Source: a virus
Virus record (IMG/VR): IMGVR_UViG_3300042311_000477
Span: 1 to 36,507 of that record
DNA length: 36,507 nucleotides
Reading direction: 5' to 3' (one strand)
Part shown: positions 20,136 to 26,637 of the stretch, piece by piece
Layout of the letters: every line of letters begins with the position of its first letter
Numbering within the stretch: the first letter of the stretch is position 1
Made by a program: the position numbers and the translations under genes
The notes under the pieces: generated by a model
Database searches by the model: none
What the model was told of the DNA's origin: nothing
What the model saw: the letters and a program-made list of their open reading frames with translations, nothing else

Positions 20136-20690
20136 CTAACCCTTTGATTTCGCTCGCTTATTGGGTTTTGGCAATTCGGCATCATTTCCTATTTTCTGTA
20201 TGGCGTCGCCCGTCTCTGGATCGACGTCAACTATCTGATTTCGCTGCTTTTCTTCTTTGATCCGCTGATTAATGCGCTGGGATGCCAGCTTCAGGGCTTC
20301 CACATAGCTTTCGCCTAGTTCCACCTGATGCTGAACCTTGTCGCCATAAACCCTGGGCGCAATCTTTCCGACATACCAGCGTCTTGCGTCGAACTTTAAC
20401 CGGGCGCGCTGCGGATCATCCGTATTATTTTCGGTTGCTTCTTTGATGGCTGTCTCGGCAACGACGTGTGCCATCTGCATGCGCGCCCGCGCGTACTGTA
20501 CCTGCCACTCCGGGTCTTGCAGCCATCCATTGATCACACACCATGAAGGCATGCCCTCCATCTTAATGATATCAATCATTAAAACGCCCCGAGATATCAT
20601 TTCGAGGATGCGCGGCATGTGATCTTCCGGCAACCAAATCGGCGTCAACCTACCCACATCATACCCCTCTCGCCATTCATGCGCTGCCAT
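20136..20690 (-). CDS. terS: Terminase small subunit (Sf6-like)
   Basis: 184-residue protein. It has an N-terminal HTH-like part (LEMISRGVLMIDIIKMEGMP, SWCVINGWLQDPEWQVQYAR), a central helical part (RARMQMAHVVAETAIKEATE), then RLKFDARRWYVGKIAPRVYG and DKVQHQVELG, which is the typical core of Sf6-like small terminases. The C-terminus is charged. It recognises the packaging site and hands DNA to TerL. It lies directly upstream of terL, separated by the G-rich gap, and overlaps the end of the 142-aa gene by 14 bases. Confidence 0.8.
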   Translation of the reverse strand: MAAHEWREGYDVGRLTPIWLPEDHMPRILEMISRGVLMIDIIKMEGMPSWCVINGWLQDPEWQVQYARARMQMAHVVAETAIKEATENNTDDPQRARLKFDARRWYVGKIAPRVYGDKVQHQVELGESYVEALKLASQRINQRIKEEKQRNQIVDVDPETGDAIQKIGNDAELPKPNKRAKSKG

Positions 20691-21105
20691 AGTGCGCCAC
20701 CAACTTGTCCAGCCCCTTGATCACTTCCGTAAGCGCCCGCTGCGGGTTCCAGCCTTTGCATTCCGCCAGCCCATAGACTGTGCCGCGCCCCAAGACACAC
20801 CAGCTTAACGCGCCCGTGACATCGCTGCCAGCAGCATGGAACGCGTCCCGGTAACTCTCAGCGGCTTGCCGTTTGGTCCTGATCTGCCCAGCCCCAGCCA
20901 TCTTGTGGCCCGGCCTAATCCCTTTCCCAGCCCCATCCACGCCTTGCTGATAGTCTTCCAGATACCGCACAGCCCCCGCATATTGCGCGTCTGTGATTGC
21001 GCCGCCTTCAAGCAACTTATCCGGCATCCATCCATTACTCGCCATTGTCTCATCCTCTACATCAGGCCCGAAATCCACCACCTCTTCCGCGAAATCTCGG
21101 CCCAT
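20677..21105 (-). CDS. Conserved phage protein with C-terminal HTH-like region (DUF6456-like)
   Basis: 142-residue protein with GAGG 5 bases before ATG 21105. The N-terminal half has TDAQYAGAVRYLEDYQQGVD and the C-terminal half has LSWCVLGRGTVYGLAECKGW and LTEVIKGLDKLVAHYG. The order resembles DUF6456-type proteins of alphaproteobacterial phages, in which the last helices form an HTH-like domain. A DNA-binding or packaging accessory role is possible, because it sits just upstream of the small terminase. This is a family-style match from memory, not a search result. Confidence 0.6.
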   Translation of the reverse strand: MGRDFAEEVVDFGPDVEDETMASNGWMPDKLLEGGAITDAQYAGAVRYLEDYQQGVDGAGKGIRPGHKMAGAGQIRTKRQAAESYRDAFHAAGSDVTGALSWCVLGRGTVYGLAECKGWNPQRALTEVIKGLDKLVAHYGSA

Positions 21106-21115
21106 GGTTGCCTCT

Positions 21116-21661
21116 TTAGATTGGGATTTCGTCCTGCATCAACTGCCCTTTCCTTACCACCTTGGCCTGGGGAAAAGCAGCCTTGATCTCACTGATAGGC
21201 GAAGCCCCTTTCAGAACCCTCCCCACCTCTTCCACCGTCCAAACCTCCGCGTTCCACCCTTCCGCCTTAGCCCGCGCCAAGATCGCTTGGGCATGGGTAT
21301 CATCCTGACAGATGCAGATGGTGCCGCGCTCCTCCTCATCAGCCCGCACAGTCACCAGAGGCCCCGGAAGCGGTTCATAGCCTGCTGCCAGTGCTTCTGC
21401 GGCCAATGCCTTCCAAGCCCTCATCATCATGGCGTCCAGTTCCGCCATATCCTCACCCGCCATTGTCGCTTGCCGGTGCATATCCTCTGCCGCCTGAAAC
21501 CGCTCCCTTGTCGCGGGCGACACCAGACGCGGGAGCCTATCAAAACCCCATTTCTTTTCCAACCAAGACACCAGGGCATCCAGCGCACCCGCCTGCTTTG
21601 TTCGCCATACCCATTCGCCTTTCGCCTCTTTCAGCGGTGGGATAATTTCTTCTTTCGCCAT
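21116..21661 (-). CDS. Uncharacterised protein downstream of the repeat array
   Basis: 181-residue protein. ATG 21661 is chosen because GGGAAGAAG precedes it; an in-frame start at 21730 would place 23 residues inside the repeat-array side. It is Glu/Ala/Trp-rich, with WVWRTKQAGALDALVSWLEK, RLVSPATRERFQAAEDMHRQ, and a C-terminal alpha/beta part (DTHAQAILARAKAEGWNAEV). I do not recognise a family. It is the first gene after the array, so its expression may respond to whatever binds there. Confidence 0.6.
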   Translation of the reverse strand: MAKEEIIPPLKEAKGEWVWRTKQAGALDALVSWLEKKWGFDRLPRLVSPATRERFQAAEDMHRQATMAGEDMAELDAMMMRAWKALAAEALAAGYEPLPGPLVTVRADEEERGTICICQDDTHAQAILARAKAEGWNAEVWTVEEVGRVLKGASPISEIKAAFPQAKVVRKGQLMQDEIPI

Positions 21662-21728
21662 TACTTCTTCCCATTCCAGTTGTGGTGCTTGTGTGCCTTT
21701 GGCCCCTAAGATTGGGAACCACTTAACC

Positions 21729-21865
21729 ACTCGCGCGTGCGACTAGTGTGCTAGCACTAGTCGTACGTGCGAGTAGTGTTTCCCTTAGGGGCCATCGACT
21801 AGCACGCACACCCAAATGTGCTAGTAAAGTGCTAGTGGATGGGGTGTTTTCCACCCCACTAGCAC
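21729..21865. repeat. CTAGCAC repeat array with 46-bp inverted repeat (candidate origin or operator)
   Basis: The core (A)CTAGCAC / GTGCTAG(T) occurs at about 21748-21757 (as the palindrome GTGCTAGCAC), 21798-21805, 21818-21825, 21829-21836 and 21858-21865. Two copies lie as direct repeats 11 bp apart, about one helix turn. The left part is a large inverted repeat: arms 21729-21748 and 21755-21774, with 18 of 20 bases paired around the 6-base centre TGCTAG. The right part is a 10-bp inverted repeat (21829-21838 and 21856-21865). The array lies between the prim-pol helicase gene and the 181-aa gene. Iterons of an origin or sites for a repressor are the best explanations. Confidence 0.75.
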
Positions 21866-21868
21866 ACA

Positions 21869-23935
21869 TTATTGGCCCTCCAAAAACGGCCTTGGCGCCA
21901 CCAATTTCATCTGCGCCAGCTTCTCTGGACACACGTTATAGTTGCTGCGCTTGTGGCGATTTGCCGGGCTTGGACCGTTCACTGGGAAGATGGTGCCTTC
22001 CTCCTGCCAAGCCTGCAAGATGTTCTTGGCTTGCTGGTCTGACACCTTCCCGGTGGCGGTCAGTACTTGCCATGCGGCGCCTTCTGTGGCGGTTGGCTTG
22101 GCCGCATAGAAATAGTGCTTGCCATCCTCCATGAAGCCTTTCTGAAGGGTTTCTAGGATCGCCACACACTCTGCCATGCTGAGATTGCCAAATGGGCTTG
22201 GCGGCTCCCAGGGCAGTGCGGCGGCTATGATCTCGCCGTTCTCGATCTCGATGGCGGTCAGCTTGTACCACTCGGCTTCTTGGGCTGGCGCGTAGTTTGA
22301 TTTGGCGCTGTCGATCCGAATGTAGGACCGGCGCTCATCAGCTTGCACCCCGAAGGCGCCTGCTTCCTCCGCTGTCATGGTGGTGAGTGTCAGCATTACC
22401 CGCACCGCCCCTGAGATCGAAGAAGCCCCGCGAACCCGGTCCATATCGCCTGGCGTACTGGTGCCTTTGCGGTCATGGTGCAGGATCAGCACCGCCATAT
22501 CCAGCCGCTGCGCCAGGGTGCGGAATGCTGCCACCACTTGGCGCATCGCTGTGTTATCGTTTTCTTCGCTGTCATGGAGTTCTGCCAGCGGATCGCAAAC
22601 CAGAAGATCGGCCTGCTCTTCCATGCAGATGCGTTCCAGTTCCTGCATTGCCTGGGTGGGTTCGATCTGCCCGGTGCTTAGGTTCCTGGCGAACAGGGTG
22701 CCTACGCTATATGGGCCGCACCGTATGATCTGGTGCATGGCTTCGCTGCTGGCGGCTTGGGCCTTGATGGCGGCGGCATAGCGGCGCTGCTGTTCGTCTT
22801 TGTCATCTTCGGTGTTGTAGTTGACGATTGTCAGCTTGGCTTCTGGCCGGAACCCGCCAAACGGCTTGCCCTGCGCCCCCGCCAGTGTCCAGCCCACTGT
22901 CATGGATGATTTGCCGCCTGCGCCCTGGCCGCTGAGAACCGTCACCGCCCCCCGCAGCAGATAGCCTTGCACCAGCCAGGGCCGCTTGGGGATTTCGGTG
23001 GGGGAGAACTGTCCCACATCCTGCCAGAGTGCCGGGCGCGGCTTGCCATCCTCTGTGGTGGCTTCTTGGGCAGCTTGTGTGGCTTGCGCTACTGGTGCTG
23101 CCCTATCAACCTTCACAAGCCCTCTAGCCGCTCTTTCCAGCGTGTAGCGCACCTTCATCCTGAACTCTGCCTCACCCCGCCCAGGGCGCCGGAAATCCAC
23201 CTTGCTGGCGTACTGGGGCCAGCCTTCCGCCACCACTTCTTCTTCTGTTGGCAGGCGCCCCAGCTTGGCCTTCAGATCGGCAACCACTGCCAGGACAGTA
23301 TCGCGCATATACTGTTCCCGCCCATCCGTGATGGTGCCTTGCAGCCCGAGTGGGCCGGGCGCGTGAACCACCGGAGACACTGAACCGGAACCATGGATAA
23401 CATCCTGGCAGATCAAATCCACCATGCTGTCAGTCAGGCTTGGCAAGCCCAGGTCATCCACATGGGCATCAACGTCCCAGGAGTACTGGCGCCCGCTGGC
23501 GTGGACCGAAGGCGGCGCGACAATAAAGCCGCCATCACCCCGGATATCCATGCCCGGCAGGATGCCCTTGCGTGTGGGAACTTTGCGCCCTGGGTGGCTG
23601 AAGAAGCGGTGGCACCCGCCGCCGCCGGTCAGCGACACTGGGCCTGCGCCCAGCCGGTCAAGGATTTGCTGTTCTGTGGCGGCGCCCAGTTCGCCATCGA
23701 AATCCAGCACCACCAAGTTGGAAATGGCGCCGGTCACGATCCCCACGCCCATGGTGGGATCGGCAAACCAATCCTGAATCTCGGCTTCGGTAGCGCGTCG
23801 GTTTTGGAACTGGTGCCAGGGAATGGCGGGTATCTTCTCGCCCCGCCGTACGGGCACCACGGACCACCCGCGCCGTAGGTAGTAAAGCGCCCATTCTTTC
23901 GCCGGGGCTGATAGGCTTGGTGCGGTCAGTGACAT
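21869..23935 (-). CDS. Primase-polymerase / RepA-like helicase fusion
   Basis: 688-residue protein with GGGGAAGAAG before ATG 23935. A GTG at 23995 is an alternative start adding 20 residues. N-terminal prim-pol domain: LDFDG (D78, D80), SLTGGGGCHRFF (101-112), GMDIRGDGGFIVAPPSVH (128-145). C-terminal RecA/RepA-like ATPase: Walker A GQGAGGKSS (336-344), Walker B LLVCDPLAELH (444-454), HHDRKG (486-491). A winged-helix-like tail follows. It probably primes and unwinds at the origin. With no DNA polymerase in the genome, host polymerase must be used. The repeat array follows its stop. Confidence 0.85.
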   Translation of the reverse strand: MSLTAPSLSAPAKEWALYYLRRGWSVVPVRRGEKIPAIPWHQFQNRRATEAEIQDWFADPTMGVGIVTGAISNLVVLDFDGELGAATEQQILDRLGAGPVSLTGGGGCHRFFSHPGRKVPTRKGILPGMDIRGDGGFIVAPPSVHASGRQYSWDVDAHVDDLGLPSLTDSMVDLICQDVIHGSGSVSPVVHAPGPLGLQGTITDGREQYMRDTVLAVVADLKAKLGRLPTEEEVVAEGWPQYASKVDFRRPGRGEAEFRMKVRYTLERAARGLVKVDRAAPVAQATQAAQEATTEDGKPRPALWQDVGQFSPTEIPKRPWLVQGYLLRGAVTVLSGQGAGGKSSMTVGWTLAGAQGKPFGGFRPEAKLTIVNYNTEDDKDEQQRRYAAAIKAQAASSEAMHQIIRCGPYSVGTLFARNLSTGQIEPTQAMQELERICMEEQADLLVCDPLAELHDSEENDNTAMRQVVAAFRTLAQRLDMAVLILHHDRKGTSTPGDMDRVRGASSISGAVRVMLTLTTMTAEEAGAFGVQADERRSYIRIDSAKSNYAPAQEAEWYKLTAIEIENGEIIAAALPWEPPSPFGNLSMAECVAILETLQKGFMEDGKHYFYAAKPTATEGAAWQVLTATGKVSDQQAKNILQAWQEEGTIFPVNGPSPANRHKRSNYNVCPEKLAQMKLVAPRPFLEGQ

Positions 23936-23997
23936 GGCTTCTTCCCCGGAAATTCGCTGTGTGGCGGGTACTCTGGGTCTTTGAGTGGGATGCACAT
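23926..23997 (-). CDS. Candidate 23-aa leader peptide overlapping the prim-pol start
   Basis: Micro-ORF with a strong ribosome site (GAGGAAACA before ATG 23997). It encodes MCIPLKDPEYPPHSEFPGK followed by KPCH, and stops at 23926, 10 bases inside the prim-pol gene start. The prim-pol ATG at 23935 lies within its last codons in another frame, so its translation could couple to, or limit, prim-pol translation. It might instead be chance: the same ribosome site could serve the GTG at 23995 that would extend prim-pol. Confidence 0.4.
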   Translation of the reverse strand: MCIPLKDPEYPPHSEFPGKKPCH

Positions 23998-26276: not shown

Positions 26277-26558
26277 CTAGTTACCATCGCGCGCATCCTT
26301 GGAGGGCAAATGTCCGTCCCGGTGTCCGGTACAGATATGTGCCCAAATCTGGTTTGGCGTTACCTCATCGGTAGCGCACATTTCAATAACAGGTATCAGC
26401 CGCACGATAGGCGGCGCAATACCCCCATATTCACCGCGATATGTCAGCCAGATCAGCCACCGGCTGGCGGTGGCGGTTGATACGCCAGCCGCCTCAGCCA
26501 GATCGCGGAGCGTGTAGCCGTTCTGCTGCAACAGCTTTCGATAGGGGAGGTGATCCAT
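26277..26558 (-). CDS. Repressor-like HTH regulator
   Basis: 93-residue protein. ATG 26558 is preferred because the candidate promoter sits immediately upstream; longer in-frame forms up to 26630 would run through the promoter. Residues 16-35 (TLRDLAEAAGVSTATASRWL) form a clear HTH of the XRE/Cro or MerR type. The remainder (GGIAPPIVRLIPVIEMCATD) is a short effector or dimer part. It faces the rightward unit from a divergent promoter pair, like CI or Cro. Whether it is a lysogeny repressor or an early-gene regulator cannot be told here. Confidence 0.75.
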   Translation of the reverse strand: MDHLPYRKLLQQNGYTLRDLAEAAGVSTATASRWLIWLTYRGEYGGIAPPIVRLIPVIEMCATDEVTPNQIWAHICTGHRDGHLPSKDARDGN

Positions 26559-26565
26559 GGTCCGA

Positions 26566-26594
26566 AGGATAGTGATGAAAAAATTTCGCGTCAA
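26566..26594 (-). promoter_or_regulatory. Leftward promoter for the regulator (leaderless start likely)
   Basis: TTGACG (26589-26594) and TATCCT (26566-26571) on the minus strand are separated by exactly 17 bases. Only 7 bases lie between the -10 box and ATG 26558, so the transcript should begin at or next to the start codon. No good ribosome site is present. This matches the leaderless cI message of lambda PRM in layout. Confidence 0.65.
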
Positions 26595-26608
26595 GCGCAT
26601 TTTTTCTG

Positions 26609-26637
26609 TTGACGTTCTTTTTTGAGGCAATTAGAGT
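26609..26637 (+). promoter_or_regulatory. Rightward early promoter
   Basis: TTGACG (26609-26614) and TAGAGT (26632-26637) are separated by 17 bases. The first rightward gene begins 41 bases downstream with an AGGAG site. The -35 boxes of this promoter and the leftward one form an inverted repeat (CGTCAA, 14 bases, TTGACG), so one bound protein could block both. Confidence 0.68.

Follow-up and report, generated by a model that had tools for sequence, protein, structure and literature searches.

The intergenic region behind the replicase gene of this virus very likely contains a replication origin made of iterons and hairpins, which the replicase would recognize through its own C-terminal winged helix. 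The window, meaning the whole 36,507-nucleotide stretch that was analysed, has ends that overlap by 127 bp, and is therefore a circle of ~36.4-36.5 kb. The replicase (708 amino acids; 21869-23995, minus strand) combines a Prim-Pol domain (residues 36-176; Pfam PF09250, E 4e-33), a RecA-type, AAA_25/RepA-like helicase (residues ~318-590; Pfam PF13481, E 2e-34) and a predicted C-terminal winged helix. RSF1010 RepA (1g8y; E 5e-13) was the only PDB sequence match of the helicase. The winged helix (residues ~605-694) is encoded by 21914-22183 on the minus strand and is the predicted origin-binding domain. The next gene after the array is a 181-residue ORF without a family match (21116-21661, minus strand). 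Its ATG is at 21661, so the gap between the replicase stop and this gene is 207 bp (21662-21868), which is the candidate origin region. A 142-residue ORF, terS and terL follow. No RepC match was found among the subset of window ORFs scanned around the replicase.

The word CTAGCAC/GTGCTAG occurs six times in the window, at 21748 (-), 21751 (+), 21799 (+), 21818 (-), 21829 (-) and 21859 (+), and all six copies lie within 118 bp (21748-21865). The sequence-only reading had reported at least five copies between the replicase and the next gene, two of them direct copies 11 bp apart, and no other such cluster in the window. All of this was borne out, the direct pair being 21818-21824 and 21829-21835 on the minus strand. 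The largest number of copies of any 7-mer in a 120-bp span was six in the real sequence and at most five (in 3 shuffles) among 200 dinucleotide shuffles. With the array masked, the best remaining 7-mer cluster in the window had three copies in 120 bp. A cluster of short words beside the putative initiator gene, a trait of iteron origins, is thus present (six in 118 bp, 0/200 shuffles).

What the earlier reader had overlooked is that the words lie within nested inverted repeats. The copy adjoining the replicase stop (21859-21865, +) belongs to a first hairpin at 21829-21865, whose arms (21829-21838 and 21856-21865) pair perfectly and each hold a CTAGCAC. An inner inverted pair, ACTAGCAC at 21798-21805 and GTGCTAGT at 21818-21825, takes in the copy at 21799-21805 (+). 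The copies at 21748 and 21751 overlap to form the palindrome GTGCTAGCAC (21748-21757), which is the tip of a large imperfect hairpin at 21702-21793 (arms ~21702-21748 and 21755-21793). Here 21726-21748 and 21755-21777 are 87% complementary around a 6-nt loop. No other 95-nt segment of the window folds as stably as this hairpin (-67.7; mean -25.6, sd 7.9; runner-up -50.5), and the 190-nt array has a fold z of -9.9 with DNA parameters. The real element therefore extends over ~21702-21868. It includes an A/T-centred palindromic core, CCCTTAGGG, at 21782-21790. Cores of the CCTWWAGG-like, A/T-centred type, a pattern chosen after the arrays had been inspected, occur in 21/38 arrays of various word classes against 6.9 (sd 2.4) in shuffles. 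The core is possibly an opening or priming point.

Hairpins directly after a stop codon could also act at the RNA level, ending or attenuating the replicase transcript with the repeats as a by-product. The hairpin at 21829-21865 is in the right place for this, and pRN1 has a separate terminator hairpin there too (PMC4234260). We consider this reading very improbable. The array region matched no Rfam family, and a scan for terminator-like sites on the transcribed minus strand showed nothing convincing. Furthermore, a terminator requires neither words outside the stem nor a change linked to that of a DNA-binding domain.

A scan of viral contigs yielded 68 related loci, and the arrays were surveyed in those with the replicase 3' end and downstream DNA. 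A hairpin/repeat array occupies this position behind the replicase in about 60 relatives, with the most distant loci forming the exception. In the relatives a dense array with nested inverted repeats follows the replicase stop, and position, density and hairpin architecture are conserved family-wide while the word is not. At least four copies of one 7-mer in 230 nt were found in 29/31 class representatives, compared with 3.0% of 1555 background stretches. The folding of nearly all arrays goes far beyond that of shuffles (DNA-fold z -2.2 to -9.9), whereas the four distant contrast loci without such arrays (L064, L065, L066 and L186) gave z of -1.9 to +0.7. The TGCARYTGCA class has few exact repeats (2-4 copies of a 7-mer) and its hairpin predominates.

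About 20 different repeat words were recorded, including those of cultured plasmids and two cultured phages. The viral contigs gave CTAGCAC, TGCARYTGCA, CCGACGCA, ATCGGGG, TGCTCCAGTAA, TGCGACAGTAA, GATTTGCAC, AATCCGGC, GCATCAAA, CCGTAACAC, TGCAACA and CGCAACAC. Later scans added AGAAGTGCGGG, TAGGGCGCA, TGGCGCA, AAACCCTGTG, CCATGC, CCCCGGAAGT, GCATCGAA, TTGTGGCGCA and ACTTGCACG. Conservation of the repeats in relatives, proposed earlier as a check, takes the form of an identical array in the close ones; across the family the word differs, changing with the replicase C-terminus. A Rhizobium phage with a related helicase has no array just downstream of it. A replicase of the window's family with a GCATCAAA array is also present in the genome of a cultured bacterium, Rhodovarius crocodyli (contig NZ_SACL01000012.1; L091/L061), at a locus that is probably a prophage. 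Phage C72C1 was uninformative as a comparison, since its DNA similarity is limited to one 538-bp stretch in the terminase large-subunit region and its replication gene is different.

Arrays accompany the RepA-like helicase across unrelated gene neighbourhoods. The same design is found behind this helicase in Microvirga terrae pR24_3, M. lotononidis, Methylobacterium indicum pVL1_6, Rhodoplanes serenus plasmid 1, Rhodoferax phage P26218 and Microcystis phage Mae-Yong1326-1. The arrays and hairpins of the Microvirga, Methylobacterium and Rhodoplanes plasmids lie at L201:3593-3760, L203:3587-3752, L202:3599-3780 and L204:3596-3830, and their words form a set of AGGTGGGGCA, AGGTGAGGA, AGGTGGGG and AAGGTGACGCA types. 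In the Microvirga and Methylobacterium plasmids toprim is a separate gene. Phage P26218 is a cultured lytic phage. Its array and hairpin (L200:2850-3060; words CTGCTAC/TGCTACAA) come one small gene beyond the RepA-like helicase and are followed by another small gene that precedes terL; they are not described in the available part of its genome paper.

The P26218 array upstream of terL, together with terS ~1 kb downstream of the array in the window, would suit a packaging (pac/cos) or recombination site. This is disfavoured because the array also stands beside the helicase in two plasmids without an annotated terminase, Microvirga pR24_3, which has no annotated phage genes either, and Methylobacterium pVL1_6. 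The word also tracks the replicase C-terminus, and we regard a packaging or recombination site as extremely improbable. A telomere-resolvase target or a MITE, both suggested by the palindrome, was rejected. The place of the array beside the helicase is fixed in all groups, which argues against a mobile element, and no resolvase match was found among the proteins scanned.

The word follows the ~100 C-terminal residues of the replicase, not the helicase and not the primase. Loci L005 and L007 share 77% of linker and 91% of helicase residues with the window, but 100% of the last ~118 residues, and their array is identical. L006 is closer in the helicase (96%), but its C-terminus is only 61% identical (67/57% by region) and its word is different. 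At the DNA level, strong divergence between window and L006 is confined to ~22211-21672 (identity 0.38-0.77); over ~21190-21671, most of the next gene, they are 95-100% identical. For L005 the reverse holds, with the ~22211-21672 cassette identical and most of the next gene at 77-97%. The C-terminus and the array thus move between conserved flanks as one cassette. The next gene is not the specificity partner, because it is near-identical in L006 despite the different array.

Another helicase family, with 24% identity to that of the window, showed the same: L026 and L032 have 100% identical helicases, C-termini at 49% and different words. In a third group helicase and word disagree. By the helicase tree, L053 goes with L056 and L050 with L054/L055; by word, the partners are L050 and L053 on one side and L054/L055 and L056 on the other. 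When helicase DNA was put to AU tests, the word grouping was rejected (p 3e-10, 2e-9 and 5e-8). The C-terminal DNA was compatible with the word grouping and rejected the helicase grouping (p 1e-6). Whole-family Spearman correlations of array similarity with Prim-Pol (0.50), helicase (0.52) and C-terminus (0.54) gave no separation; the informative tests for linked exchange are the discordant pairs and the AU tests. The array and the N-terminal primase vary independently of each other. Prim-Pol is present in the window, L061 and L026, L189 has a weak Toprim match and L054 has no Pfam primase. L026 and the window are ~99% identical in Prim-Pol and 24% in the helicase; here the entire set of helicase, C-terminus and origin has been swapped behind a common primase.

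These exchanges bear on the idea that the array is an operator, with sites for a repressor or activator (an HTH regulator, or the replicase regulating itself) that switch between the replication and packaging blocks. The array does have replication genes on one side and the terminase/late operon on the other, and there is a weak HTH match at 26277-26630. No copy of CTAGCAC occurs near that HTH-like gene (26.3-26.6 kb) or elsewhere in the window outside the array, and no sigma-70-like promoter was found in 20600-22400. Arrays accompany the helicase where the next genes differ, Microvirga pR24_3 included, and a different word comes with a different replicase C-terminus even where the next gene is 95-100% identical. 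The sequence-only reading had left origin and operator side by side. The evidence strongly supports the origin, and a regulatory array now seems quite unlikely.

Alternatively, the origin could be read by a host protein or another phage protein, with C-terminus and array exchanged together merely as neighbours. Since the two adjoin, a crossover to either side takes them along together, and plain linkage accounts for part of their joint inheritance. We nevertheless find this alternative unlikely. Hundreds of flanking bp are conserved on both sides while exactly these two parts change, and the same linked change is seen in two helicase families that are 24% identical to each other. The third argument comes from the predicted structure. 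AlphaFold2, run with 24 family members as input, predicted a winged-helix fold for the replicase C-terminus, with residues 605-694 at pLDDT 84-92. PDB fold matches were weak, the best (E 0.013) being to PadR/MarR winged-helix regulators. The model of the L026-type C-terminus was poorer (mean pLDDT 65; helices and a terminal strand pair) and was not relied on. Wing positions 678 and 679, which are A678/N679 in the window, discriminate array classes in three independent contrasts. RR at 678-679 is unique to the eight CCGACGCA loci, and in a comparison of all classes these positions are two of only three columns that separate the CCGACGCA class. Since RR stays with the CCGACGCA word although the C-termini are otherwise down to 44% identical, the alignment points to residues 678-679 as specificity residues, beyond simple linkage.

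GC skew was considered as supportive evidence only. On the closed circle of the window the minimum of the detrended cumulative skew is 112 bp from the array, and the skew jumps there from ~0.02 to 0.18 and then decays round the circle, even though the genes on either side of the array run on the same strand. The minimum was within 301 bp of the array in 6/11 contigs, which have common ancestry and gene order. Four cultured replicons, namely two plasmids of Microvirga, one of Methylobacterium and Rhodoferax phage P26218, showed no skew break at the array, and the skew evidence was downgraded for this reason. A skew change at the array, proposed earlier as a check, is therefore a feature of the window lineage and not of the cultured relatives. 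In the late-gene half, skew falls steadily with distance from the array without a second switch (window, G002, G003 and G005). The break in the phage lineage may stem from the late operon.

Our proposal is that the C-terminal winged helix of the replicase binds the CTAGCAC words, as iterons, inside and beside the large hairpin. The hairpin and A/T core next to these words would be where the RepA-like helicase ring assembles, after which the Prim-Pol domain of the same protein would prime on the exposed single strand. Family-wide, array and C-terminal domain are swapped jointly as a specificity cassette. For binding of the words by the replicase, the indirect pointers are the linked exchange and the wing residues. 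Protein-DNA binding, strand opening, priming and origin function are inferred here by analogy with pRN1, RSF1010 and P4 (PMC4234260) and with Cch2 (PMC7581432).

A broader reading, plausible enough to state but held tentatively, is that these replicases form a widespread, self-contained helicase-initiator family of phages and alphaproteobacterial plasmids in which the wing reads a hypervariable iteron/hairpin origin by a wing-to-word code. The cassettes would circulate under diversifying selection, for example for escape from satellites or origin-directed nucleases. To our knowledge, the start of replication in dsDNA phages is seldom known from sequence. In this family one rule locates a candidate origin: the gene of a RepA-like helicase is directly followed by a hairpin rich in repeats. 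The origin word can be read directly from the sequence and its likely reading domain can be named. Almost every group has its own "address word", and the start site appears to be traded with the matching DNA-reading end. The word/domain pairs point to origin specificity as a trait that changes fast and is traded, much like that in the conflict between PLE and ICP1. Because there are ~20 natural pairs, including those of cultured replicons, the recognition code is testable by simple swaps.

Several known systems resemble this one. In SaPI Rep and SCCmec Cch2 the C-terminal domain of the helicase recognizes short repeats directly downstream of its own gene, and for Cch2 binding of the downstream repeats by this domain has been shown (PMC7581432). 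The predicted DNA-binding C-terminus, the placement of the repeats directly downstream of the helicase gene and the covariation match. However, the window helicase is of the Pfam AAA_25/RecA type, nearest to RSF1010 RepA and not of the SaPI Rep/Cch2 type, the replicase carries a fused N-terminal Prim-Pol, the repeats lie in and beside one large hairpin, and the family has many word classes. In pRN1 of Sulfolobus, the origin stem-loop is just 3' of the gene for ORF904, a primase/helicase/winged-helix protein; its authors noted a similar loop in Bordetella phage BIP-1 and described the recognition motifs as "not yet identified" (PMC4234260). Both replicases join Prim-Pol, helicase and C-terminal winged helix (the latter by structure prediction here) in one protein, with a large stem-loop just 3' of the gene whose structure is kept while its sequence changes. 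The helicase of pRN1 is SF3 and there are no iterons, whereas the window has a RepA-like helicase and words that offer an explicit candidate motif.

The alpha protein of phage P4 likewise has primase, helicase and winged helix in one chain, the winged helix being the part that binds the origin repeats (PMC4234260). Such an arrangement is predicted here as well, but the P4 primase is of the Toprim type, and the array in the window forms a large hairpin immediately next to the gene. RSF1010 (IncQ) has iterons, stem-loops for priming and separate RepA, RepB' and RepC proteins, of which RepC reads the iterons (PMC4234260). Its RepA-type hexameric helicase is related to that of the window by sequence (1g8y, E 5e-13), and iterons plus stem-loops are common to both; in the window one polypeptide would do the work of the three. 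In the PLE satellites of Vibrio phages, the RepA DNA-binding domain and ori covary and are exchanged as a module, as swap experiments demonstrated, and the ori modules are targeted by the nuclease Odn (PMC8263062). Modular exchange of origin and initiator DNA-binding domain is the likeness, the role of the winged helix being predicted here. The PLE domain is an N-terminal RepA_N, whereas the winged helix here is C-terminal and part of the helicase protein of complete phages, and there are many more classes (~20 words). The literature searched, the coverage of which was incomplete, contained no description of these arrays. The functional kind is already known, being the SaPI/pRN1/P4 type of replicon, though by helicase type the window belongs to neither pRN1 nor SaPI. 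What is new is the RepA-like helicase type and the broad swapping of origin specificity.
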